Below are positions 2,163-25,967 of a stretch of DNA of 26,090 nt, piece after piece. Source of the DNA: a virus. Positions within the stretch are counted from its first letter, which is position 1, and the number at the start of each line of letters is the position of its first letter. The position numbers and the translations under genes were made by a program. The DNA lies in the IMG/VR virus record IMGVR_UViG_3300006920_000207, positions 1 to 26,090 of that record, one strand, 5' to 3'. The notes beneath the pieces were generated by a model that saw only the letters and a list, made by a program, of their open reading frames with translations, was not told the DNA's origin and made no database searches.

Positions 2163-4221
2163 ATTAGTAGTAGATGTAGAGAACAGCGTAACTCATTTAG
2201 ATAATAGACGCATAGATAACAGGCCACATAATAAAAACAATGACCTAGTATCTATTGGTATACTTAATGTGGATACGGGAGAAGAAGACTACGTAGCAGT
2301 GTATCACAATGAGAAGGCTCACAGTGCAGATCGTAGGGCTGAAGTAAAAAATAAAATACAGAGTGCTGACATTCTTATAGGACACAATATAAAGTATGAC
2401 CTACAGTGGCTATGGGCATCGGGCATAGAGTACGATGGCATGGTGTACGACACAATGATAGGCGAGTACATACTTGCAAGAGGTGAGCGTATGTCTATAT
2501 CCCTAGCTAACTCATGTGAGCGCAGAGGATTAGAGAATAAAAAATCAGACATAACAAAAGAGTATTGGGATAAGGGTATAGGATATGAGGCTATGCCTTG
2601 GGATATAGTAGAGGAGTATGGGAGAGCAGACATACGTGCTACCCGTGACTTATACCTAGACCAACTAAAAGAGTTAGAGGGTACAACCTTGATGGCTACA
2701 GTAAACCTTACAAACAATATGTGTATGTGCCTATCAGAAATAGAATACAAAGGCTTGGCTATTGATGTAGCAAAGTTAGATGAGGTTGAGTTTGACTATC
2801 GCATGGAGAAAAAAGAACTGACTCGCAGACTACAAGAGATGGTGCATTCGTACATGGGTGATACACCTATCAACCTAAGTAGTCCAGAGCAAATATCTTC
2901 TATGGTATTCTCATACGTACCTAGAGATAAAAAAAACCATGCCATGTTATACCAGCTAGACAGACCGTTCAGACCTAAGATAGCTAGTGCTAAGTTCAAA
3001 GACATGGTTAGGAAGGGCTGTAAAAAAATAAAAAAAACAATAGCATCACACTGTAATCACTGCAATGGTACGGGCAAACTACGTAAGGTACGTAAGGATG
3101 GCTCACTCTACAAGAATGAACACACCTGTTCGTACTGTGGTGGTAGTGGCATGAGATACTTTGAGACAAGTGAGACAGCAGGGCTTAACATATTCCCACC
3201 TGATTCTACTTGGGCTACTGCTAACGGGTTCAGTACAGATAAAACTAAATTAAGAATACTAAGTAAACAACTAACAGCATTGAATGCAGAAAAGTATTCT
3301 GATGCTATAGAGTTCCTAGAAAAAATAGTTAGGCTAGGTGCAGTAGAAACATACTTGTCTTCATTCGTAGAGGGTATACGTAAGCGAACTATAGATGGTA
3401 TGCTGTATGCTGAGTTCAACCAGTGCCGTACTTCTACAGGTAGGCTATCATCTTCATCACCTAATATGCAGAATATGCCTAGAGGTAATACGTTCCCTGT
3501 TAAGGAGGCATTTATATCTAGGTATGGTAAGGACGGTACACTGTTAGAGTTTGACTTTGCACAGTTAGAATTTAGGGTGGCTGCATTCTTGTCCGAAGAT
3601 CAAATAGCAATGGATGAAATAGAAACAGGCTTTGATGTACACACGTACACTGCAAATTATCTTACTGAGCAGGGCCAACCCACCAGTAGACAAGATGCTA
3701 AAGGCAGAACCTTTGCCCCTCTATACGGAGCCATGAGTGGTACTCCTGCTGAACGTGCATACAATGCACACTTCATAGAGAAGTACTATGGTATACGTAA
3801 GTGGCATGACAAGCTACAGACTGAGGCAATAAAAAATAAAACTATAACCCTACCTACGGGCAGACAGTTTGCATTTCCTAATGCACGTAGGACAAAGACA
3901 GGAGGATCAACCAATGCAACCAAAATAAAGAACTACCCAGTACAGGCACTCGCAACGGCAGACATAGTACCGCTATGTTTAGTAGCCTTGCGAGATGCCC
4001 TACTAAAAAATAAATTAAAAAGTACAATAGTAAATACTGTACATGATAGTGTGCTATTAGATTGTTTGAATGAAGAAGTGGAAGCAGTAAAAAAATTAGT
4101 AGAGGATGTACTGTCACCCACTTCAACAAAAGACCGTATCCATTTGTATTATAACATTAATATGAATGTGCCGTTGATTATTGAAACAAAGACAGGAGAC
4201 AATTGGTTAAATATGTCTTGA
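2152..4221 (+). CDS. polA: Family A DNA polymerase with 3'-5' exonuclease and inserted DnaJ-type zinc finger
   Basis: This is the replicative phage polymerase, 689 aa. The exonuclease domain is complete: D8/E10 (VDVENS), N79/D83 (GHNIKYD) and Y156/D160 (YGRAD). Between exonuclease and polymerase lies a DnaJ-like zinc finger with two CxxCxGxG motifs, at 301-308 (CNHCNGTG) and 326-333 (CSYCGGSG), flanked by Lys-rich stretches. The polymerase domain has motif A DFAQLEFR (D468), motif B R513-K517-F521-Y525 (O helix) and motif C HDS (D632). The residue aligning with E. coli Pol I 762 is Phe521. Motif C normally reads HDE; here the Glu is Ser. The start is supported by GGAAGGG at 2136-2142. As I recall, the DnaJ insertion is typical of the HMO-2011 phage group. 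Confidence 0.96.
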   Translation: MTIRLVVDVENSVTHLDNRRIDNRPHNKNNDLVSIGILNVDTGEEDYVAVYHNEKAHSADRRAEVKNKIQSADILIGHNIKYDLQWLWASGIEYDGMVYDTMIGEYILARGERMSISLANSCERRGLENKKSDITKEYWDKGIGYEAMPWDIVEEYGRADIRATRDLYLDQLKELEGTTLMATVNLTNNMCMCLSEIEYKGLAIDVAKLDEVEFDYRMEKKELTRRLQEMVHSYMGDTPINLSSPEQISSMVFSYVPRDKKNHAMLYQLDRPFRPKIASAKFKDMVRKGCKKIKKTIASHCNHCNGTGKLRKVRKDGSLYKNEHTCSYCGGSGMRYFETSETAGLNIFPPDSTWATANGFSTDKTKLRILSKQLTALNAEKYSDAIEFLEKIVRLGAVETYLSSFVEGIRKRTIDGMLYAEFNQCRTSTGRLSSSSPNMQNMPRGNTFPVKEAFISRYGKDGTLLEFDFAQLEFRVAAFLSEDQIAMDEIETGFDVHTYTANYLTEQGQPTSRQDAKGRTFAPLYGAMSGTPAERAYNAHFIEKYYGIRKWHDKLQTEAIKNKTITLPTGRQFAFPNARRTKTGGSTNATKIKNYPVQALATADIVPLCLVALRDALLKNKLKSTIVNTVHDSVLLDCLNEEVEAVKKLVEDVLSPTSTKDRIHLYYNINMNVPLIIETKTGDNWLNMS

Positions 4222-7457: not shown

Positions 7458-9164
7458 GTGTCATCATTTAAATCTAACACCAATCCCCAGTTTAGAAACA
7501 AGTTCTCAGAAGATATATTTAAATACAAGTATGCCCATGAAGGTTGTGATACTTGGTCACAGTTAGCAGATACACTTGTTAAAGATGTGTGTGGGTCTTT
7601 ACGTCCTGATGAGGAGAACCTGATGGATGTAGAGGAACAGCAGGAACTGATTAAATACATATCAGACTTTAAGTTTGTACCCGGCGGTAGGTATTTGTAT
7701 TATGCAGGTAGGAAGAAGAGGTTCTATAACAACTGCTTTCTATTAGGTGCAGAAGAAGATACGCGACAGGATTGGGCTAACCTATCTTGGAAAGCTGAGT
7801 CCTGCCTGATGACAGGTGGTGGTATAGGCGTTGACTACAGTATATATAGGGCATCAGGTAGAATACTTGGTGGCTCTGGAGGTGAGGCATCAGGCCCCGT
7901 ACCAAAGATGCAAATGATTAATTCTATTGGGGCAAACGTAATGCAAGGGGGGTCACGTAGATCTGCCATATACGCATCGCTGAATTGGAAACACAATGAC
8001 ATACCTAGCTTTTTGGTAGCAAAGAACTGGGGGGATATGCCAGTAGGTACAACTGGATTTACTTTTAAAGATATAAAGGAGCAGGACTTTAACTTCCGCG
8101 CACCTTTAGACATGACTAACATCAGCGTCAACTATGATACTGAATGGCTTATGAACTATTGGAAGACAGGTGACGTTGGCGAAGTGTTTGTAAACAATGT
8201 CAAACAGGCACTGTTCTCTGGCGAACCCGGCTTCTCTTTTAACTTTATGGAGAACGAGAATGACACATTACGTAACGCCTGTACTGAAGTTACTTCTGCT
8301 GATGACAGTGATGTATGCAATTTGGGGAGTGTCAACTTTGGAAATATTGACTCGATAGAAGAGTTGTCTAGGGTAGTAGAGTTAGGTACTAAGTTTTTAA
8401 TATGTGGTACTCTTAGGGCTGAGTTACCTTACCAGAAAGTCTACGATGTAAGAGAGAAAAACAGACGGTTAGGACTTGGACTAATGGGTATGCACGAATG
8501 GTTAATTAAGAGAGGAGAAAAATATGAGGTTACTGATACCCTTCATCAATGGCTTTCTGTATATAAAGGAGTTAGTGATAGATTTTCTAGACGATTTGCG
8601 GATGAACTATCCATATCTAGGCCAGTGGCGAACCGTGCTATTGCTCCTACTGGCTCTATTAGTATACTCGCTGGTAGCTCCAGCGGGATAGAACCTATCT
8701 TTGCTGTTGCATATAAGCGTAGGTATCTTACGGGTGGTACTAAGTGGAAGTATCAATACGTAGTAGACTCGTCAGCACAAGAGTTAATTGATATGTATGG
8801 AGTAGATCCTGATAGCATAGAGTCGGCACTAGACTTAGCTGAAGACTATGAGAGAAGGATTAAGTTTCAAGCTGATGTACAAGACTACGTAGATATGTCT
8901 ATCAGTTCTACAATTAACTTACCTTCTTGGGGTTCTAAGCTAAACAACGAGGATACAGTAGATGACTTTGCTAAGACACTAGCATCCTATGCACATAGAC
9001 TTAGAGGATTTACTGTGTACCCAGATGGAAGTAGAGGTGGACAACCTTTGTCAGTTGTGCCATACTCTGAGGCAGTAGACAAGCTAGGCACAGAGTTTGA
9101 TGAACACGTAGAGACACATGATATTTGTGAGATAAGTGGAACAGGAGGTGTATGTAGTGTTTAA
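7458..9164 (+). CDS. nrdJ: Class II adenosylcobalamin-dependent ribonucleotide reductase
   Basis: This enzyme reduces ribonucleotides to deoxyribonucleotides for phage DNA synthesis. The barrel motifs are visible: NNCFLL (C93) and CNLGS (C287) should form the redox pair, and the finger loop NACTE holds the thiyl-radical cysteine C275. The stretch APTGSISILAGSSSGIEP and the later SSTINLP are typical of the B12-dependent class. There is no ATP-cone and no NrdB-like small subunit nearby. C557 and C566 at the C-terminus can act as the shuttle that re-reduces the active site. At 568 residues it is a compact form. The finger loop reads NACTE where NPCGE is usual. The GTG start is set by GGAGG at 7444-7448. 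Confidence 0.94.
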   Translation: MSSFKSNTNPQFRNKFSEDIFKYKYAHEGCDTWSQLADTLVKDVCGSLRPDEENLMDVEEQQELIKYISDFKFVPGGRYLYYAGRKKRFYNNCFLLGAEEDTRQDWANLSWKAESCLMTGGGIGVDYSIYRASGRILGGSGGEASGPVPKMQMINSIGANVMQGGSRRSAIYASLNWKHNDIPSFLVAKNWGDMPVGTTGFTFKDIKEQDFNFRAPLDMTNISVNYDTEWLMNYWKTGDVGEVFVNNVKQALFSGEPGFSFNFMENENDTLRNACTEVTSADDSDVCNLGSVNFGNIDSIEELSRVVELGTKFLICGTLRAELPYQKVYDVREKNRRLGLGLMGMHEWLIKRGEKYEVTDTLHQWLSVYKGVSDRFSRRFADELSISRPVANRAIAPTGSISILAGSSSGIEPIFAVAYKRRYLTGGTKWKYQYVVDSSAQELIDMYGVDPDSIESALDLAEDYERRIKFQADVQDYVDMSISSTINLPSWGSKLNNEDTVDDFAKTLASYAHRLRGFTVYPDGSRGGQPLSVVPYSEAVDKLGTEFDEHVETHDICEISGTGGVCSV

Positions 9165-9396
9165 TAGAAAGACGTTTACTAAACGGAGGAAGGGTGCTGT
9201 ACGTAAGCATCTTAATGAGAAGGCATTCTTCTCTGGTAGGGAAGGGTTCAAGGTCAATAGCCATAACCCTAACCGAAGAAACACTCTAGAGTATAAGGAA
9301 TGGGAGAGAGGATACAACCGTGAGTATTTTATTAACTTAAATAGAGTCGTAAAGATCGAGCAAAATGAATCAGCTAGACCTATTCATAGAGCATGA
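9157..9396 (+). CDS. Small basic protein with Rmf-like spacing, 79 aa
   Basis: GTG 9157 is chosen because AGGAGG (9143-9148) sits 8 bases upstream. An in-frame GTG at 9136 would place that site inside the gene. The product is basic at the N-terminus, then shows an FFSGREGFK segment, an NP pair, and KEWERGYNREYF. Ribosome modulation factor and related small proteins share a G-rich helix, an NPY and a closing WxxGW/GY. The resemblance is weak and from memory. If real, the protein might bind ribosomes or ribosomal RNA. It overlaps the reductase stop by 8 bases and the next gene by 32. Confidence 0.65.
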   Translation: MFNRKTFTKRRKGAVRKHLNEKAFFSGREGFKVNSHNPNRRNTLEYKEWERGYNREYFINLNRVVKIEQNESARPIHRA

Positions 9397-9799
9397 GGAT
9401 CTAGGAGCAGGAGAGGGTAAGGTATGTAGCAAGTGTAATACGTATCTCCCTCTAACTGCATTCTCTCCTAGTTCAGGTGCTAACTTTTTAAGACCTGAAT
9501 GTAGATCTTGTAATAACGAACTGACTAAAGTAAGAAAGAGGTTGAGAGAAAAACATGGTATGCCTCCCGAAGGATATGTATGTCCTATCTGTAACTGTAA
9601 TGAGGAGCAGGTAAAGGGTAAAGGTAATACTAAGAATGGTTCATGGGTATTAGATCATTGCCATGACACTGAAACCTTTAGAGGGTGGCTATGTCATAAA
9701 TGTAATAGGGCATTGGGTGGATTTAATGATGACCTAGAGACACTAGATAGAGCCAAAGAATATATTACAAACCATTTGAAAAGGATATTCTTAGTATGA
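9365..9799 (+). CDS. Recombination endonuclease VII-like HNH resolvase
   Basis: The C-terminal half carries the endonuclease VII pattern: C73-x-x-C76, then the active site LDHCH (D97, H98, H100), FRGWLC, and C110-x-x-C113 followed by NRALGGFND. T4 endonuclease VII uses the same fold to cut Holliday junctions and mismatches. A second cysteine set, C21/C24 and C46/C49, forms an extra N-terminal zinc knuckle. The gene overlaps the preceding one by 32 bases and has only a weak GAG before the ATG. With endonuclease I at 6261-6734, this is the second junction-cutting enzyme in the block. A homing HNH role is possible, but there is no intron nearby. Confidence 0.9.
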   Translation: MNQLDLFIEHEDLGAGEGKVCSKCNTYLPLTAFSPSSGANFLRPECRSCNNELTKVRKRLREKHGMPPEGYVCPICNCNEEQVKGKGNTKNGSWVLDHCHDTETFRGWLCHKCNRALGGFNDDLETLDRAKEYITNHLKRIFLV

Positions 9800-9891
9800 T
9801 ATTGAGAGCATCTATTATGTTATGCATCCTAGCTTTGTGTCATGGGTGTACCAGCAACCAAGGCTATCACGCCAGTTTTATAATGATATAA
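9796..9891 (+). CDS. Tiny hydrophobic, lipoprotein-like peptide, 31 aa
   Basis: The ATG overlaps the endonuclease VII stop as ATGA. The peptide starts with a short charged end, then a hydrophobic stretch, IMLCILALCHGC, followed by TSNQG. This looks like a signal peptide ending in an imperfect lipobox (C18 after Gly, but His at -2 and Cys at -3). The gene fills otherwise empty space before a secreted protein. It is too short to identify. A lipidated membrane peptide is the best guess. Confidence 0.4.
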   Translation: MILRASIMLCILALCHGCTSNQGYHASFIMI

Positions 9892-9908
9892 CACAAAGGA
9901 GATTACCA

Positions 9909-10229
9909 ATGACTAAAACATTTATAGGAGGTTTAATTGCTATATGTAGTATTGCATTCAATGCGTCATCATCGTACAGCCAAGTACCACTACGAACAGG
10001 GTGTCACGATCTGGCAGAAGCTAAAAAAATTATTAAAGATAAACACGGAGAGAACATAATCTTTCGGGGCATCTCTGCTAGAGGACACGTAACTTTTATA
10101 TTTCATAATGCAGATACTGCAACGTGGACGGCTGCTATTGTAAAACCAGAAGCATCACAACAGCTATGCTGGGTAGACTCAGGATTTACTGGAGAAAGTG
10201 TGTCTAATAATAATCCTGTAAGGTGGTGA
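9909..10229 (+). CDS. Small secreted (periplasmic) protein, 106 aa
   Basis: The ATG follows AAAGGAG at about 7 bases. The open frame extends upstream to 9822, but that part overlaps the tiny gene and lacks a ribosome-binding site. The first 25 residues form a classic signal peptide: a Lys, then GGLIAICSIAF, then NASSSYSQ as the likely cleavage region. The mature part of about 80 residues has two cysteines (TGCHDL and LCWVDS) that could form a disulfide in the periplasm. I do not recognise the fold. Expression with the replication genes suggests that it alters the envelope early in infection. Confidence 0.72.
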   Translation: MTKTFIGGLIAICSIAFNASSSYSQVPLRTGCHDLAEAKKIIKDKHGENIIFRGISARGHVTFIFHNADTATWTAAIVKPEASQQLCWVDSGFTGESVSNNNPVRW

Positions 10230-10231
10230 TT

Positions 10232-10510
10232 ATGGGAGAGGACGATCACAGTGGAACTAGTATCACTACTAAGACCCCATTGTATACATTCGATTGGTAT
10301 ATCAAATGGGTTTCAAGTATAATATTAATGGTGTCTACTATTCTTACTGCTAATAACATCTATCCTATTAACTTATACTTTCATGCTGTAGGTATTGGGG
10401 GTTGGTTAATGGTAGGTATGCTATGGAATGATAGGGCATTGATGGTAGTAAACGCTTTTGCTCTAGCAACTTTACTTATGGGCCTATTTAAAGTACATTA
10501 TACTATGTAA
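10232..10510 (+). CDS. Small inner-membrane protein, three TM segments, 92 aa
   Basis: ATG 10232 is chosen because AAGGTGG lies 6-8 bases upstream. A hydrophilic N-terminus (about 20 residues) precedes three hydrophobic segments: IKWVSSIILMVSTILT, the region around FHAVGIGGWLMVGMLW, and ALMVVNAFALATLLMG. It resembles a family of short three-helix proteins with WYIKW...GWLxVGxLWxDRAL that I have seen in marine phages and bacteria (possibly DUF6552; the name is from memory). It is the last gene of the plus-strand block. A role in envelope modification or superinfection exclusion is only a guess from position. Confidence 0.72.
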   Translation: MGEDDHSGTSITTKTPLYTFDWYIKWVSSIILMVSTILTANNIYPINLYFHAVGIGGWLMVGMLWNDRALMVVNAFALATLLMGLFKVHYTM

Positions 10511-10530
10511 AAATAGGCAAATCAAATGTA

Positions 10531-10614
10531 AGGCATTTTAAGGGGGGCTACAAAAGAAGTGTCTATAATCTGGACACTACCTACCAGAGGGTATCTTAGC
10601 ACCCCCTTGTGCCT
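10531..10614. other. Nested inverted repeat, three-way-junction fold between convergent operons
   Basis: The gap 10511-10618 holds no gene. An outer stem pairs AGGCA (10531-10535) with TGCCT (10610-10614). It continues with 10540-10550 (AAGGGGGGCTA) against 10597-10608 (TAGCACCCCCTT, one bulged A). Inside are two hairpins: AGTGTC/GACACT (10558-10578, 9-base loop) and TACC/GGTA (10582-10593, 4-base loop). The element can fold in transcripts from either strand. There is no clear U-run directly after the stem on either strand, so it is not a textbook intrinsic terminator. Its position between two convergent operons still makes termination, or protection of 3' ends, the most likely role. Confidence 0.6.
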
Positions 10615-10618
10615 CATC

Positions 10619-10960
10619 CTACGAGTCCGTTTTCTCCGACTCCTTAACTAATTTCTCTAATTTGTAGAATTTTATGCGATCATTAGGTAAGTATCGCCAC
10701 ACTGTACCTCTGCCATTATCAATCTGTATTATAGTTTCATAGAAACCTATTTTAACTATGATAGCTTTCTCTCCATCTAGTACACAGGTATCACCCTCGT
10801 TAAAACTAGAGTGCATTCTAAACTTCAACCCGTTCATAAAGTTGGTAGCAAAGTCTCTGACCATGAGAGTAAGGATCAAGGCTAACATAATAACTAGCAT
10901 AGGAGTTATTAGCTCTACAAATTCTATTGACATACTGTTTATATCTGTAAGTTCTTTCAT
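10619..10960 (-). CDS. Miniature MscS-like membrane protein, 113 aa
   Basis: One hydrophobic helix (residues about 13-34, LITPMLVIMLALILTLMV) is followed by DFATNFMNGLKFRMHSSF. The protein then has a small beta domain, NEGDTCVLDGEKAIIVKIG, and ends with a YLPNDRI strand. This tracks the pore helix and beta domain of MscS (DLANNL, FRAGEYV, IPNGKI in the E. coli protein). The other TM helices and the large C-terminal cage are absent, so it is about 40 percent of MscS length. It is the last gene of the minus-strand block, after the endolysin. It may form a small channel or adapt membrane tension during lysis. It may be translationally coupled to the preceding 51-residue membrane protein by ATGA. 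Confidence 0.65.
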   Translation of the reverse strand: MKELTDINSMSIEFVELITPMLVIMLALILTLMVRDFATNFMNGLKFRMHSSFNEGDTCVLDGEKAIIVKIGFYETIIQIDNGRGTVWRYLPNDRIKFYKLEKLVKESEKTDS

Positions 10961-11112
10961 TTTTTATTTGAGTTCCATAATTCAAATAGGACTTTAACTT
11001 TTTCTTTTAAAGTCTCTAACTCACCGTGCATTTTTGCCAGTACTATAATCAGCGTTATTATACCAAACGCTATAGGCCATCCTGAAACAATCACTGACCA
11101 CGTATCTTCCAT
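10957..11112 (-). CDS. Small single-TM protein, candidate holin or spanin-type, 51 aa
   Basis: The ATG at 11112 follows GAGGATGAG, and the stop overlaps the next ATG as ATGA. A hydrophobic segment covers roughly residues 6-26 (VIVSGWPIAFGIITLIIVLA). It is followed by a charged helix, KMHGELETLKEKVKVLFELW, and a Lys-rich end. This layout (short N-terminus, one TM, charged amphipathic C-terminus) is typical of tiny phage holins and of some spanin-like proteins. It lies near the endolysin, with two basic-protein genes between. There is no sequence family I can name. Confidence 0.6.
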   Translation of the reverse strand: MEDTWSVIVSGWPIAFGIITLIIVLAKMHGELETLKEKVKVLFELWNSNKK

Positions 11113-11124
11113 ATCTCATCCTCA

Positions 11125-11379
11125 TTATTTGCGATAGCCCCTAGTTTTTTTAGCTATCCGTTTAGGTTGCTTTACGTGTTGCTTACCTGCTTTTGTACCT
11201 TTTCTTTTTGCCTTTGTAGTTGCTGCATACTCAGCAGAACTAAGAGATTTTATTGCGCTACTAGGCAGGTATCTTTCTCCTGTAGCCTTTGGCCCTTGAG
11301 TAGAGGGCTTACCTGACTTAGTACGCCACTTCTGCTTAGTCCAGTTTTTAAGGCTTTTTTGTGATTTTTTTAGAGCCAT
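11125..11379 (-). CDS. Small Lys-rich conserved phage protein, 84 aa
   Basis: The ATG at 11379 follows GGAGG at a good distance. The product is very basic and starts with KKSQKSLKNWTKQKWRTKSG, then GERYLPSSAIKSLSSAEYAA, then a run of Lys and Arg to the end. I recall this WTxQxWRTKSGKPS...ERYLP..AIK.LSxAEYAATxxxK pattern from small conserved proteins of marine phages, without known function. No membrane segment is visible. Charge suggests nucleic-acid contact or a virion DNA-associated role. Confidence 0.75.
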   Translation of the reverse strand: MALKKSQKSLKNWTKQKWRTKSGKPSTQGPKATGERYLPSSAIKSLSSAEYAATTKAKRKGTKAGKQHVKQPKRIAKKTRGYRK

Positions 11380-11382
11380 TCT

Positions 11383-11574
11383 TTATTTGTATCCTCCACC
11401 TTTTGCTTTATATTGCTTGGCTAACATCTGGGCTTTTCTCCCAGACCATTGTCCCGGCTTACCACCCTTACCACCAGCCTTTATTCTATTAAATAAATTC
11501 TTACGCATGGTAGGTTTTGTGTAGTTACCAGCCTCGTTTACTTTACTCTTTGTTGTTTTCTTTTTCGCTGCCAA
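11383..11574 (-). CDS. Small Lys/Gly-rich conserved phage protein (DUF5872-like), 63 aa
   Basis: The start is TTG (11572-11574), set by GAGGAGG 6 bases upstream. No ATG is available before the conserved part. The product reads NYTKPTMRKNLFNRIKAG, then GGKPGQWSGRKAQMLAKQYK and a GGGY end. I associate this pattern (R..L...IKAg.kGGkPGQWSaRKaQlLa..Y...GGGY) with DUF5872-like proteins in phages and bacteria. It is strongly basic. The gene lies between the endolysin and another Lys-rich gene. Function is unknown. Confidence 0.78.
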   Translation of the reverse strand: MAAKKKTTKSKVNEAGNYTKPTMRKNLFNRIKAGGKGGKPGQWSGRKAQMLAKQYKAKGGGYK

Positions 11575-11584
11575 GTTAGCCTCC

Positions 11585-12022
11585 TCACCCTATAAACATT
11601 AATCTTTCATGCGCTCTTCTTTTAATTAAACCCTTCAGTTTCCTACCCCCTGCAAATACCCAACGTGGAAATTCGTCTGCCGCCCCAATGTAGTCACCCC
11701 TGTTAATCTTTCTACGTAGTGTACTGCTCTGTAGACTTCCGCTACCTAAGTTGAATACGAATGAGCAAAGCGCATTGAACTGCCCATCCTCTAGTGGCAC
11801 TCGTATAAGCCTGAGTACAGTCTTTTCAGACTTACTTACATCTCTACGTAGTAATTGATCTGCCTGTCCCTCATTTATATCAGGATGCTCTTCTGTTACC
11901 CTAGTACCGTCTAGGCCCCAGATAGCTCCATACCCTATTGTCCAGTGTGCAGCAGGGCATAGGTAGGCAGAAGGGCTGTAACCCTCATATAATTTAATTA
12001 AGTCCAGCCCCTCGTCAGTCAT
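11585..12022 (-). CDS. Endolysin, GH24 lysozyme (T4/R21-like muramidase)
   Basis: This enzyme cleaves peptidoglycan to release progeny. From ATG 12022 the catalytic set is E13 (KLYEGY), C22 and T28 (CPAAHWTIGYG). It follows the E-8aa-(D/C)-5aa-T rule of GH24 phage lysozymes, with Cys in place of Asp, as in many P22- and R21-type enzymes. The 145-residue length is typical. No TM or signal-anchor segment leads the protein, so it needs a holin; one candidate is at 16343-16804, another at 10957-11112. A GTG at 12031 is an alternative start three codons upstream. Neither start has an ideally spaced ribosome-binding site. Confidence 0.93.
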   Translation of the reverse strand: MTDEGLDLIKLYEGYSPSAYLCPAAHWTIGYGAIWGLDGTRVTEEHPDINEGQADQLLRRDVSKSEKTVLRLIRVPLEDGQFNALCSFVFNLGSGSLQSSTLRRKINRGDYIGAADEFPRWVFAGGRKLKGLIKRRAHERLMFIG

Positions 12023-12033
12023 GTGCCTCACTG

Positions 12034-12162
12034 TTACTTAGTCTTTTTTTTCTTCATAGCACCACCATACATCATCTTGGCAGCTGGTTTCTTTTTCTTC
12101 ATCATCATTTTCTTTTTGTCAGCCATACTCATTGACTTCTTTTTTCCGTAATGTCCGGGCAT
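12034..12162 (-). CDS. Tiny Lys/Met-rich protein, 42 aa
   Basis: The ATG at 12162 follows GGAGGAGAG at a good distance. The peptide starts MPGHYGKKKSMSMADKKK and then is almost all Lys and Met, with an AAKMMYGGAM segment. MPGHYG followed by a Lys-rich run is a start I have seen in small marine phage proteins. It is hydrophilic and highly basic, with no predicted fold. It sits immediately upstream (in transcription) of the endolysin. DNA or RNA binding is possible from charge. Confidence 0.65.
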   Translation of the reverse strand: MPGHYGKKKSMSMADKKKMMMKKKKPAAKMMYGGAMKKKKTK

Positions 12163-12165
12163 AGT

Positions 12166-12369
12166 TTACTCTCCTCCTACACTAATCAGTTGGTCTTTGT
12201 TTGTGTGACAACCACACCTACAGACCTCTGGGTTACAATTACATTCGATGCAACTATCGCAGTTACAACCTCCTGTAATAGTATCTCTATTGTCTTCTAT
12301 AATTACGCTGTTCTCATCTGTTATCATTGTAGTACTAGCTCCCCCATAAAATACTTTTCCGCTAATCAT
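12166..12369 (-). CDS. Cys-rich metallothionein-like peptide, 67 aa
   Basis: ATG 12369 follows GGAG at about 10 bases and overlaps the preceding stop as ATGA. Residues about 35-55 pack nine cysteines and a histidine: CNCDSCIECNCNPEVCRCGC, then H. The CxC and CxxC spacing resembles metallothioneins, which hold Zn or Cu in thiolate clusters. No other metal domain, TM or signal peptide is visible. The first 33 residues are acidic and Ser/Thr-rich. The gene lies in the late block between a giant virion protein and the Lys-rich peptide next to the endolysin. Metal binding is inferred from sequence only. Confidence 0.65.
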   Translation of the reverse strand: MISGKVFYGGASTTMITDENSVIIEDNRDTITGGCNCDSCIECNCNPEVCRCGCHTNKDQLISVGGE

Positions 12370-12512
12370 TGTCTGTTTCTCCAGAACTCTTTGTTCTTTA
12401 GATACTTCTCTTTGTCTACTGGTTTTATTTTAATCCACGTATCTTCTACTAATACTTTTTCACCCTTATCTTCTATTAATGATCCTGTAGAATCAAACAT
12501 AGGTTTAGTCAT
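12366..12512 (-). CDS. Small charged protein, 48 aa
   Basis: The ATG lies within the last codons of the giant gene upstream, and the TGA overlaps the next ATG. The peptide is hydrophilic (DSTGSLIEDKGEKVLVEDTW, then KIKPVDKEKYLKNKEFWRNR), with a mix of Lys and Glu and two Trp. I see no known motif. The continuous coding chain from 16071 down to 12166 with 4-8 base overlaps supports it as real. Function is unknown. Confidence 0.55.
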   Translation of the reverse strand: MTKPMFDSTGSLIEDKGEKVLVEDTWIKIKPVDKEKYLKNKEFWRNRQ

Positions 12513-15500
12513 TAAATAGTTGCCCCATTTCTTTGTCTATCATTCCCCCTTTATTAAATTCTATTCCTCTTGGAAAACCTTCACTAAAAAGTTCTTTTAA
12601 TTCTGGGGTTACATCCATTACCCAGTAAGGTGCGCTATCAAATACAAAAGGATGGTTCTCCCCGTAGGTATTTATAAAATCTGTTAGAATTACCTGTAGA
12701 TCATCTATTTTGTTACTATTACCTACCATGTCAGGCGACCCATAGGTAATCCTCAATCTATCTTTTAATTCTTTTGTATATCTGCTTATACTTTTCATTG
12801 TTCTAGTTATATTAATAATCTCTTCATCAGGTAGCCAACTAGTATCTAGTTTACCAGTAGATATAAGTTTTTCTTGAGCATCTATTAATTCACCTATTTC
12901 AATTAAATCTCGTATAGGAGGATTAGTTCCCGGTCTAATTTGAAATTGATTTAATTTTATATAATTTTGACGTAAGTTTACATTAATACCATTTTCTTTT
13001 GCAATTTTTTCTATTGTTTTAGGTAATATACTACTATAATATTGTTTAGTTCCCTCCCCTATATTTCCATTGTATCTAATTGATTGAACCACATCAGTTG
13101 CAAATAGTATTTCATCTGATCCATTTTCTATTGCTTCTTTTATTGCTCTTTTAACTCCTAGAGTAGACCACTGTGGTATTTTTCCTACACGTTTTTTAAA
13201 TGGAAGATCTGGAATTATTTGAGGATTATCTATAGATCTTTCCTGTTCAGGTATATCTTGATAACGTATATCTGTACGTGTTGTTGGTGATTCTTGATAA
13301 AACTCTAATTGCTCTAAAAGATTTTCATATTCTTTTTCTGATAAAGTACCTCTCTTTAAGCCTACTGATCCTTTAATTTTACTTAGAAGTTTATTTCTTT
13401 TTTCATCCTCAGATAAAACTTTTTTAGCAGTCTCGTCAAGCATTTCAGTATTACTATAGGTTTCTTCTATGCTTTTAGCGATACCTGTTTTTGGATTTGT
13501 TTCATCAGCTACAACATTTTTTCCTTTATTTGCATCTGATTGAATTTCACTAACTATAGTTCTTTTTATTTCTGATTCAGGATTAGACCAATCACTTGTT
13601 TTAGTGACATTATTATATAATCTTACGTGAACTATAGGAGTGACATCAACGTCTGTTGCATCTCCAAAATGATCTATATTTTTATAATCTCTTCTAACAC
13701 GCATTGCAACTTTTGGTTCGGGCATATTTAAAACATAAGGCGGTATTTCTTGAACCTCACCTAAGTTATCAATATACGTGCCTGATTCTATTTCTGCTTT
13801 AGTAAGTGGTCTTTCTTTAAATTGAAGAGGTGTTCCGATTGTTATTTCTTTATACTGTCTATCATCTATGTAACCTACTACAGTGTTTGTAATCTTTTTT
13901 TCCATATCTCTTGTAGAAGGTTTCATAGCATTAGGTTCCATATCATGTACACCTCTCATAAGAATATAAGAAGGTTTTCCTTTTATTTTAGTTCCTGTTA
14001 CAAGTTCTGACATTTTTTCTGTATCATCCAATAGCTCACTATACTGTATCCATTGAGGTCTACCAACAATAGCATTATCTTTATCTAAAGAGCTTGTGCC
14101 TCGCATCCTGCTATAAGGAGGTTCATTATAATATACAGTATCCGTAAGTATAATTTGATTATTGTCAATTCTTTTTCGTATATCTAACCTACTAATTTTT
14201 TTAACATCTTTTTCTATAGCCTCTTCTAGTAGATTTATAAGACCAAGATGTTTAGCTTGATCTGAAGGTATTGTACTTACAAACTTCTTAAACTCATTAA
14301 GAGGTATTGTTTCCTTTAAATTATCTATTTCTTTGTCAACTTTAGCTCTATACAAAAGACTGTTAGGAAATTCTTTTTCCATTCCTCCCGGTGTGCTAAC
14401 ATCTATTTCTCTAGTAGTAGAGGGGTTAATATTTGCTCTTTCATAAAATGCTTGTATATCAGGATCATTATAACTAGCATAATACTTATTTGGTAAATTA
14501 TATGTATTTAAAGATGTTATAGGTTTTTTAGAATTTTCAATAGCATCAGTATCCTTTGCTACTTCCCTACTTAACTTCTTAGCTGCTGGTTTAGTTACAA
14601 CATCTGATCCGGGTATAAGACCTAATAATGTTAATGCAGCATAGGCTGATCCTGTGCCATATCTGCCCTCCTCAAAAGCCTTTTTTGTTTCTCCAAATAT
14701 AGGATCAATACCGGGTAGGGGGGGTGTAAATAATGCAGCTAAATCTTGGCTATCTAATTTTTTATCAGGCCCACCATACATAGGGCCGTACTCAGGGTTT
14801 TCTTTCCCTCCTGCTATATCTAATAACATATCAGTTTCTTGTGCTATAAGTCTAGGATCTCTCTCAGGCTCTCCCCTATACACACCTAGCGCATCTGTTT
14901 GTGCGTCAGTTAAAGGATCGTCACCTTCTACGTTAAGTATCTCTTTCATCTGATCGTCTAGAAGACCACCTTTATTTAACCTATACACTACATTAGTATC
15001 GTGTCCTCCAAGTGCCTTTGGAGCGTCTCGTTTTCTAGCATAAATTAAATCATCTTTTAAAGCATATATTCTATCTGCAATAACTAAAACTTTTCCTTTA
15101 GATCCTACTAGGGCTTCATTAGTATCTGCTCTAATTGCTAGGTGTTGTAGTGCAGGATTGAATTTTATTTCTATAACGTTAGGATCATTAATAGAAAATT
15201 TACTTATGTCATACTCAGTGTAATCACCTCTAACAGCCATCAAACGATCTTTATTAGCTCCTCCTGCAACTTCTGCCCTCAAGTTTTGATCTACAGTAAA
15301 AGATACTACACCTTTATCTTTAGTAGGATTTACAAGCACATAGGGTTGATCTGCATATACAGTTCCTTTTACTTTCCCTCCTTCTTGTACAGATAAGAGA
15401 GGTTGTTTCTTAGGCTCATCTGGTTTTCCTATCTTAGGAATAGGTACAGCCTCATCATTTATATCTGAATTTAAATTAGGTCTTACTGCAACAAGTTTTC

Positions 15501-16071: not shown

Positions 16072-16343
16072 TTTACTTTGTTCGCCCAATATGCTGCTGA
16101 CATTTTACCTTTGGCAATGTTCTTACCATGTCTAGCTTTGAATGATTTTCTTCTAGCCTTTTGCTTTGCCGATTCTCCTGTCTTAGGTTTACCAGCAGTC
16201 TTTACACCCTGTTGACCAAAGCGTATCAACTTCTCCTTACCACCCTCTCTAGCTAGTACGGCATGAGATTTCTTAGGGTGGTCAGGTGTCCTCTTAGGTT
16301 TATTGTAACCAGAGAATGTTTCTTTGCCCTTCTTTACAGTCAT
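16065..16343 (-). CDS. Small basic conserved phage protein, 92 aa
   Basis: The ATG (16341-16343) follows AAGGAGT and overlaps the holin stop as TAATG. The product is basic. It has ETFSGYNKPKRTPDHPKKSH near the start, then LIRFGQQGVKTAG, then a closing block, ARRKSFKARHGKNIAKGKMS, with a Trp-Ala-Asn-Lys end. I recall this RFGxQGV...RRKSFKARH...YWANKVKW pattern from many phages of marine bacteria as a protein of unknown function. No TM or catalytic residues are evident. It sits between the holin and the giant virion protein. Confidence 0.78.
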   Translation of the reverse strand: MTVKKGKETFSGYNKPKRTPDHPKKSHAVLAREGGKEKLIRFGQQGVKTAGKPKTGESAKQKARRKSFKARHGKNIAKGKMSAAYWANKVKW

Positions 16344-16804
16344 TACGAACTACTCCTTGATCTTTGCAAGGCCCTACTTCCAAACCAGAATGATATGATG
16401 GCAGCAAATATGCCTTGCGTTTCTTCATCCCACAGTGTCTGGATAGCCATCTCCCATACAACGCCATCTGTATATATTAGTCCGTATATGGCTGTACCTT
16501 TTATTACGGCAAAAAGCGTAAAGAACAGATACGTTATAACGGGGCGAACAGATGCCCTCAGTGCAGACATAAATCCCGTAGTCTTGAGAGACTGATCGTG
16601 TTTGTATATCGCCTTAGTCTCGCTTATGTCAGCCTCTATGTTAAGGGCCTCTATCTTTTGTACGTGCTGTAGCTTAGATGCTTCTAACTGGCGATCCATC
16701 ATAGCTAACTCATGCTTACGATCCTGCCAATCATTTACCATATCAAATACTTTAGGCAGTGCAGATCCAGCAAATCCTATCAGTGATCCTAATATTGTAA
16801 TCAT
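16343..16804 (-). CDS. Holin, GTA-type three-TM family
   Basis: The 153-residue product has three hydrophobic parts: residues about 1-15, about 88-112 (around SVRPVITYLFFTLFAVIKG) and about 131-146 (IFAAIISFWFGSRAL). The central part is a charged helix with many Lys, Glu and His. The RASVRPxxTYxFF and FWFGSRAL motifs match, from memory, the holin family first noted in gene transfer agents (GTA_holin_3TM). It would permeabilise the inner membrane so that the endolysin can reach the wall. The gene is about 4.3 kb away from the endolysin, with the second giant virion gene between. The ATG overlaps the preceding TGA as ATGA. Confidence 0.82.
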   Translation of the reverse strand: MITILGSLIGFAGSALPKVFDMVNDWQDRKHELAMMDRQLEASKLQHVQKIEALNIEADISETKAIYKHDQSLKTTGFMSALRASVRPVITYLFFTLFAVIKGTAIYGLIYTDGVVWEMAIQTLWDEETQGIFAAIISFWFGSRALQRSRSSS

Positions 16805-24704: not shown

Positions 24705-25967
24705 TTACTGTGTTCCTACAGGGCCTAGCGCATTACTTACTAATCCCTGATTAGCTGCACTAGTTAGATTAGAACTTATGTTTTGTCCTGTAGCTTGAGC
24801 TGCCCTCTCCGCTGCAAGTATTGAGTTTAGTGAGCCGGGGTCAGTTGCAGGAGGTTGCATCATACCGGGCTGTAGTCCTGTAGAGCCTGTGTTACCTAGT
24901 TGTGCCTCTACTAGTCGGTTAGTCTGGAATCCATACATATTCTCTAGGTTCTCTAGCTCTTGCGCTCTAGTGTTTAGAGTAGATAATAGGTTAGCTCTTT
25001 CCTGACTAGATATGTTTTCAAAGTTAGCTAACGCACTAGCTATGCCAGATACGTCCTGACCTACCTGAGTTACATTACCTCCTACATCAGATATATTTGT
25101 ACCTAATGTTTGTTGACCAGCAAATAATCCAGTAGGTGCAACAGCTGCCTGAGTAGCAGTTCCCGGTGTACCTGCCGTTCCGACTGCTCCTATCAGACCT
25201 GTAGCTTCTCTAGTATCTGTAGCAGTATCACCTATCCTAGACATAAGACCTGCCTGTGTACCTGCTAGTCCTTCTTGGCCCGTTAATATATCTGCCTGTG
25301 TATCTGCTAGTCCTTGTTGACCTGACATAATACCTTCTTGGCCCTCATACAAACCAGTGGCCCCTGCTGTATCGGTAGCTTTAGTACCTACTTGTGTACC
25401 TACGTCTGTTATCTGTGTACCTAGTCCTGTCTGTCCTGTTGCTAGGGCTTGAGTTTGTTCCATTAAAGTATCAGCTTGACCAGTTCCAGCAGTTCCTATA
25501 TTACTTTGTACACCTGCTATATCAGAAGCTAAACCTGCCTGTCTTCCCATAAGTGTAGATTGACCTGTATCACCAGTAGCTCCAATTAAATCAGTTACAG
25601 GGTTTAACTGTCCTGATTGTAATTCCACTGGCCCTGATGACATCATTCCAGTTGTACCTGTAGTACCAGTTGTACCCGTAGTACCAGTTGTACCTGTAGT
25701 ACCAGTTGTACCTGTAGTACCAGTTGTACCTGTTCCATCACCACCTGTATCGCCAGTAGGAACAAAAGGTGCTAAACTATTAGCAGGTCTTGCACCTCTT
25801 TCAATTTCTCTTGCTCCAAAAGCATCATAATGTGCTGAAGCAAATCTAAGAACATTTCCACCATAAAGGGCTTCTTGTGCTGTTCCTGCTATGTTATCTC
25901 TATAGTGTTGAAGCAAATCATTATTATTTGCTAAATAGTTAGTAGCTTCATTAGTTCCTAATGGCAT
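24705..25967 (-). CDS. Virion or tail-associated protein with collagen-like GTT tract, 420 aa
   Basis: The N-terminal 60 residues include NYLANNNDLLQHYRD and RFASAHYDAFGAREIERGAR. They resemble a YLxxNPDL...HYxxFGxxEGR repeat often found in bacterial and phage surface proteins. Residues about 75-105 are Gly-Thr-Thr triplets, a collagen-like Gly-X-Y run. The next 200 residues have a loose repeat of GQxGLxxTQxxI and GTxITDVGTQ type. The C-terminal third has a coiled-coil segment (around NTRAQELENLENMY). Phage collagen-like tracts usually connect or stiffen tail fibres. Assignment to the tail is an inference. No ribosome-binding site is clear; the nearest is GAGGAAA. Confidence 0.65.
   Translation of the reverse strand: MPLGTNEATNYLANNNDLLQHYRDNIAGTAQEALYGGNVLRFASAHYDAFGAREIERGARPANSLAPFVPTGDTGGDGTGTTGTTGTTGTTGTTGTTGTTGTTGTTGMMSSGPVELQSGQLNPVTDLIGATGDTGQSTLMGRQAGLASDIAGVQSNIGTAGTGQADTLMEQTQALATGQTGLGTQITDVGTQVGTKATDTAGATGLYEGQEGIMSGQQGLADTQADILTGQEGLAGTQAGLMSRIGDTATDTREATGLIGAVGTAGTPGTATQAAVAPTGLFAGQQTLGTNISDVGGNVTQVGQDVSGIASALANFENISSQERANLLSTLNTRAQELENLENMYGFQTNRLVEAQLGNTGSTGLQPGMMQPPATDPGSLNSILAAERAAQATGQNISSNLTSAANQGLVSNALGPVGTQ
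25648..25733 (-). repeat. 18-bp tandem repeat, about 4.8 copies
   Basis: The plus-strand unit CCAGTTGTACCTGTAGTA is repeated at 25648, 25666 (one mismatch, C for T), 25684 and 25702. It ends with a 14-base partial copy at 25720-25733. On the minus strand each unit encodes two Gly-Thr-Thr triplets of the virion protein. Near-identity of the copies points to recent slippage or recombination, so copy number may vary between related genomes. Confidence 0.92.

Follow-up and report, generated by a model that had tools for sequence, protein, structure and literature searches.

Reduced and virus-encoded relatives of mechanosensitive channels have been described in several settings. TcMscS of Trypanosoma cruzi lacks TM1 and the cage, yet it assembles as a heptamer and gates under tension with a conductance of 478 pS; it is described as the smallest characterised channel, with TM2 kept (PMC12334622). 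Since TcMscS works as a channel, a miniature MscS can function. MscS-like genes have also been reported from large DNA viruses, including one for a 261-aa protein of Aureococcus anophagefferens virus (PMC6163359), and MscL genes from estuarine viruses, mainly Caudoviricetes, where they rise with salinity (PMC13288924). The 113-residue phage protein presented here resembles each of the MscS-type systems in part. Like TcMscS (PDB 9bgq), it presents a reduced MscS with TM3 and the beta-domain and without the C-terminal alpha/beta cage; unlike TcMscS, which keeps an N helix and TM2, it has a single TM, is viral and lies among lysis genes. Compared with EcMscS, with which it shares a gap-free TM3-beta core, it is without the TM1-TM2 paddle, the cage and the C-terminal barrel (113 versus 286 residues). 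It is virus-encoded like the Aureococcus anophagefferens virus protein, which differs in having three predicted TMs, in belonging to an algal giant virus and in that no link to a lysis cassette is described in the available sections of its report. Three-TM holins (PF11351, GTA_holin_3TM) and one-TM holins such as T of phage T4 are likewise small membrane proteins of lysis modules, but they have no MscS core. A phage MscS-like lysis protein was not found in the open-access PMC literature, and if this one-TM protein, which stands one membrane helix below TcMscS, forms a pore, we know of no smaller MscS architecture.

The window, that is, the whole 26,090-nt stretch of viral DNA analysed, codes for a DNA polymerase with 37-45% identity over nearly the full length to those of HMO-2011, CRP-1, CRP-345, HTVC033P and others. 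Because of this identity, we read the window as an HMO-2011-type podophage, a member of a group that has been described as dominant and widespread in the ocean (PMC9038755). The MscS-like gene closes a late block on the minus strand that runs in the order endolysin, 63-aa basic protein, 84-aa basic protein, tm51 and MscS-like gene, and plus-strand genes converge from the opposite side (Table 1). A sequence-only reading had placed the gene last in the late block, after the endolysin and a one-TM protein; this holds, and two small basic genes that the reading leaves unmentioned lie between the endolysin and tm51. The motifs DFATNF, EGDT and LPNDRI given in that reading are all present in the 113-aa ORF. 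The number of promoter and terminator sites found by a scan of positions 10300-12100 was no higher than in shuffles, and nothing was matched in an Rfam scan of positions 9000-13000. The 84-aa and 63-aa proteins (11125-11574) are both very basic, and neither has a Pfam match; in HMO-2011, a 79-aa protein that by eye is like the 84-aa one precedes the lysis genes.

Table 1. Coordinates of the MscS-like gene, its predicted parts and its neighbours in the window, and of c11 copies in other records.
Feature	Record	Coordinates	Strand	Remarks
MscS-like gene	Window	10960-10619	minus	ATG start; 113 aa; one predicted TM
Predicted long helix, residues 2-49	Window	10814-10957	minus	TM3a/TM3b-like; P20, D36 and G44 invariant in 35/35
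Predicted beta-domain, five strands, residues 56-103	Window	10652-10795	minus	G56, W88, N93 and R95 invariant in the family
tm51, 51-aa one-TM protein	Window	10957-11112	minus	Charged tail; its stop and the MscS-like start overlap as ATGA
84-aa basic protein	Window	11125-11379	minus	phrog_14910 (no assigned function); between endolysin and tm51
63-aa basic protein	Window	11383-11574	minus	PHROG match, phrog_17747 (no assigned function)
Endolysin	Window	12031-11585	minus	Phage_lysozyme PF00959, E 7.9e-42
c6, 153-aa 3-TM holin-family protein	Window	16343-16804	minus	GTA_holin_3TM-like family
c11 copy	L057	6428-6772		
c11 copy	L072	6380-6661		
c11 copy	HMO-2011 (L085)	35724-35924	minus	

Taken alone, the window protein scored 13.5 bits against PF00924, the MscS beta-domain (E 0.078), which is below the gathering score of 20.2, and the whole window record likewise gave no match above the cut-off (0/1). 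It matched the MscS of H. pylori at E 0.078. Across the 35 aligned family members, PF00924 matched 14 (best E 0.0022) and the NCBIfam MscS models matched 11 (best E 9.2e-5), and when the family profile was compared with PDB sequences, eight of the nine matches were MscS-type channels, all of them weak (0.4 and worse). The sequence-only reading had proposed a profile search that might have found no MscS at all; in hhalign, the 35-member family aligned to 12 cellular MscS proteins over residues 25-84 with a probability of 95.3 and a score of 55.2, while none of 40 column shuffles exceeded 19.3 and the reversed profile scored 15.7. Removal of the helix lowered the score to 26, and the beta part alone gave 24%, which places the similarity in sequence in the TM3 helix and in the beta-domain's first half. 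For the second half of the beta-domain, the likeness to MscS rests on the predicted fold. Run on the cellular proteins, the same 35-member profile matched 7 of the 12 at E 4e-5 to 0.11; the run also matched three unrelated phage ORFs at E 0.017-0.031, so only the three best cellular matches (E <2.5e-4) count. The profile matched none of the named-phage stretches regarded as possible carriers (L084-L088), nor L089 and L090.

The AlphaFold2 model of the window protein, built from 16 sequences, consists of a helix at residues 2-49 followed by five strands (pLDDT 81.5, pTM 0.53). In a Foldseek search against the PDB, the top 50 rows for this model were all MscS-type (E 3e-4 to 7e-3). In VIA, MscS-type channels filled the first 46 rows, at Z 9.5-7.0 and with an rmsd of 2.4-9.9 A over 66-110 residues. 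The next rows, at Z 6.8, were unrelated chains, a modest gap in a score that long helices inflate. For this reason, the divergent relative L057 (146 aa) was modelled separately (pLDDT 77.6). Its top 50 Foldseek rows were again all MscS-type, and its first 43 VIA rows were MscS-type at Z 9.5-7.3, with 2.9-3.5 A over about 88-90 residues in the best rows and the first unrelated row at Z 7.2. Both phage models matched TcMscS. The matches in BFVD include A0A076FGK6, the MscS-like protein of Aureococcus anophagefferens virus. The C-terminal extension of L057 was modelled as one helix (residues 111-142), and the idea that the cage is restored in longer relatives was therefore unsupported. The MscS pattern, first guessed by eye, is thus borne out by the profile comparison and by the PDB matches of two AlphaFold2 models, and the window protein is almost certainly a distant relative of MscS that comprises the TM3-beta core.

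The alignment to EcMscS is ungapped, with each EcMscS position equal to the window position plus 77, so that residues 25-84 correspond to EcMscS 102-161; identity over the aligned core is 18%. The equivalents of EcMscS G121, F130 and G133 are G, F/W and G, respectively, in 35/35 members, and that of N117 is N in 25/35. At the positions of L105 and L109, which we take to form the closed gate of EcMscS, as we take G121 to be a hinge, all 35 members carry L/I/V/M and F/L, respectively, and Q112-G113 is replaced by [KR]D in 35/35. The TM3-beta organisation of MscS is accordingly present, with a helix leading into the beta-domain, conserved Gly/Asn in TM3b and F..GD before strand 1. The TM1-TM2 sensor paddle is absent, as the stretch ahead of the single TM is no longer than about 15-20 residues, and so is the C-terminal alpha/beta cage, since the protein stops after the beta-domain. 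TM2 is missing here though TcMscS keeps it, and gating may therefore be lost in the phage protein. Because positively charged residues follow the helix, the topology is probably single-pass with the N-terminus out and the C-terminus in, as for TM3. Given the score below the Pfam cut-off and the absence of paddle and cage, we file the protein as a distant relative with the MscS core fold, not as a canonical channel.

Relatives with 35-100% identity were found in at least 80 IMG/VR loci. The scans, begun with the single protein and continued with growing alignments, returned 21, 44 and 80 loci, the last being the best 80 of 87. All family members have a single TM and the common core, and their lengths range from 107 to 157 aa when the first start codon is used; some groups are extended at the C-terminus. 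Within the window group, residues 1-41 are nearly constant and the remainder is variable. The ratio dN/dS within groups was about 0.02-0.14 wherever dS was unsaturated, and the gene is under strong purifying selection. The number of loci (at least 80), the low dN/dS and the alignment of the family profile to MscS above shuffles show that the gene is real and beyond chance. Among the candidates from GTDB genome contigs, the single sequence and a 16-member alignment found no relative in a pattern-based scan that distant relatives can escape; the same scan gave no sign of a cellular reservoir of the short protein. Four tblastn queries against 50,697 named-phage records found nothing convincing (one of them gave seven weak matches, none better than E 0.4), and no copy was detectable in the named HMO-2011-type isolates.

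Among the 80 IMG/VR loci, 68 have at least 300 nt on both flanks. With labels assigned by HMMs trained on these same loci, a c6, c11, tm51 or lysozyme gene lies within 100 nt of the MscS-like gene in 57/68 and within 3 kb in 63/68, leaving 11 and 5 loci, respectively, in which no lysis gene was recognised. Three of these five are L047-L049, and in L047 a different membrane protein of 150 aa follows 1 nt after the MscS-like gene. Several arrangements recur. In the window group (A), the endolysin is followed at some distance by tm51 and the MscS-like gene, the last two joined by an ATGA overlap in 19 relatives as well as in the window. In arrangement B, a gene for a large protein, the MscS-like gene and c6 follow one another, with an ATGA overlap between the last two in 17 loci. 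In arrangement C, the order is c6, tm51, MscS-like gene and lysozyme (L058, L060 and also L052, with tm51, as well as L071, in which the sequence ends upstream), and the MscS-like and lysozyme genes overlap in four loci. In D, a spanin pair (Rz-like phrog_739, E 6.9e-12, and phrog_812, E 1.7e-11) stands at some distance before the MscS-like gene and c11, whereas in E a small gene takes the place directly before them; across D and E, the MscS-like gene overlaps c11 in 21 loci, by lengths that vary with the choice of start. In the window itself, c6 lies 5.4 kb away from the MscS-like gene. Like a holin, the product is predicted to be a small one-TM membrane protein, and lysis-type genes adjoin its gene in the 57 loci. 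In PHROG, the window protein was unmatched, and the 35 members were scattered over mostly unnamed PHROGs, none of them a holin. Taken together, the various gene orders in which relatives occur lend further weight to the placement in a lysis region proposed by the sequence-only reading, and the MscS-like gene is probably a member of the lysis module.

Searches were also started from the neighbouring families. PF11351 matches 13 of the 19 aligned c6 relatives (best 1.6e-5) and the PHROG holin phrog_3427 matches 8 of them (best 5.4e-4), while the window copy itself is unmatched by PF11351. Relatives of c6 stand right before the lysozyme gene in Vibrio phage PS25B.1 and ctXG6705, and among the best 80 of 129 c6 relatives surveyed, with lysozyme queries, the c6 start lies less than 600 nt from the lysozyme start in 7/80. 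The 27 close relatives in this survey (identity >=78%) are window-lineage records and all have the MscS-like gene, 26 of them in the fetched locus and one (L114) through a shared contig with L009, which has the gene. Among the 53 more distant relatives of the same best 80 of 129, it was found in two. One of them (L176) shows overlapping MscS-like, c6 and lysozyme genes, in this order, in an otherwise different phage, and in the other (L182), whose neighbourhood is T4-like, a PAP2 gene comes next. This PAP2 phosphatase-like gene (3652-4209; PF01569 at E 4.2e-7) and the end of the MscS-like gene overlap. Genes for Fe-S carrier-like proteins were also observed in lysis neighbourhoods, at L046 6774-7100, L050 1893-2219, L176 6330-6656 and L182 8121-8507 (minus); the L046 copy matches PF01521 Fe-S_biosyn (3.9e-11), and the others were recognised by eye or by cluster.

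The c11 family corresponds to phrog_10198, which has no assigned function, and resembles a two-TM holin of wide occurrence. HMO-2011 has a c11 relative in a 66-aa ORF that exceeds the annotated gp57 in length and shares 4 nt with the start of the lysozyme gene. In the survey started from c11, the MscS-like gene was present in 4/80 loci, each time just upstream of c11, and the idea that it is an obligate partner of c11 was rejected on this count. Pelagibacter phage Mosig has a small baseplate gene in direct overlap with c11, which leaves no room for an MscS-like gene, while L068-type relatives have a 41-46-aa gene, then the MscS-like gene, then c11; by size and position, the Mosig baseplate gene probably corresponds to this 41-46-aa gene. 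The tm51 family is widespread in phages, with at least 545 relatives. Among its best 80 loci, 7 carry the MscS-like gene, 25 have a lysozyme gene no farther than 2.5 kb away, and in 5 the distance to c6 is under 400 nt; given the wide spread of tm51 and the 7 loci, a general two-gene module of tm51 and the MscS-like gene was rejected. Possibly tm51 is a lysis component that has yet to be described. Both c11 and tm51 appear holin-like in their position and TM content. The three surveys show that the MscS-like gene is fixed in the window lineage as sampled and is elsewhere an occasional accessory, found repeatedly at lysis-type genes.

The reading that we prefer, although it falls slightly short of being probable, is that of an accessory lysis-module protein that would build a minimal pore or ring of MscS type in the inner membrane and tune turgor or membrane potential, and so the timing of the holin. 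The beta-domain and the TM3 helix would drive oligomerisation into a small inner-membrane ring, as in MscS, and the ring might enclose a narrow pore, either leaky or opened by tension. As late proteins build up, it would limit turgor, drain the membrane potential or do both, and might thereby set or sharpen the moment at which a separate holin fires and lysozyme reaches the wall. The protein would then be an accessory regulator of lysis, not the main holin, a role to which the observed gene linkage points. Pore formation itself we regard as evenly balanced, and an action on lysis timing as a somewhat weaker possibility. A role as the sole holin is unlikely because the same phage has a separate 3-TM holin-family gene, c6; the suggestion of the sequence-only reading that the protein is a channel-type holin is accordingly weakened where the phage's own holin is meant. 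A stronger version of the accessory reading, in which the one-TM pore opens at a turgor threshold in a virion-filled cell, collapses the membrane potential and so fires the holin of the same module, would make membrane tension, and not holin concentration alone, the trigger of lysis; we consider such a mechanical clock speculative and rather improbable.

Other roles fit parts of the same evidence. The MscS fold might have been kept only for its capacity to oligomerise into a ring, one that does not conduct but binds the holin in the manner of an antiholin or chaperone. The overlaps with a holin-family or holin-like gene in several arrangements would suit such a partner, as would the near constancy of residues 1-41 in the window group and a one-TM topology in which the loss of paddle and cage makes classical gating doubtful. 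However, large hydrophobic residues at the pore-leucine positions in 35/35 members are what a kept gate would show, and the 5.4 kb between the two genes in the window also argues against it, so that we hold this alternative to be unlikely. Somewhat less likely still is a safety valve by which the phage guards against early bursting as turgor rises, and which would be no lysis component. The relationship to emergency valves, the loci without a lysis neighbour and the salinity trend reported for MscL genes of estuarine viruses (PMC13288924) are in its favour, but the adjacency of lysis-type genes in 57/68 loci speaks against it. Hosts, moreover, usually have an MscS of their own.

What the phage protein retains is precisely the part of MscS that forms the ring, with neither sensor nor cage, which raises the further idea that this TM3-beta fragment jams the MscS rings of the host and keeps turgor high for an explosive lysis; with 18% core identity to EcMscS, mixing of subunits is unlikely, and we consider this poisoning very improbable. 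Hardest to maintain is a merely superficial resemblance, in which a small beta-barrel from a different family, anchored in the membrane, happens to look like MscS. Single-sequence scores under curated cut-offs, unrelated barrels at VIA Z 6.8-7.2 and the low hhalign value of the beta part could be cited for it. The profile, NCBIfam and both fold searches nevertheless rank MscS first, with no unrelated beta-barrel family matching better, and the sequence alignments share one register, which leaves such a coincidence scarcely credible. The repeated occurrence of this MscS core beside lysis genes suggests that phages reused the core of a pressure valve in lysis. If the accessory protein does form a pore, it would be the smallest MscS architecture known to us and a natural test of what MscS gating needs, and lysis in HMO-2011-type phages would gain a component of a new kind, one that ties lysis timing to membrane mechanics.

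Two further features of the window lie outside the late block. The ribonucleotide reductase ORF (7458-9164) codes for 568 aa, and the HMO-2011 gene has 1,944 bases. A tandem repeat with an 18-base unit, present in about 4.8 copies with 97% matches (25648-25734), sits within a 420-aa ORF (24705-25967) and encodes a Gly-Thr-Thr run.
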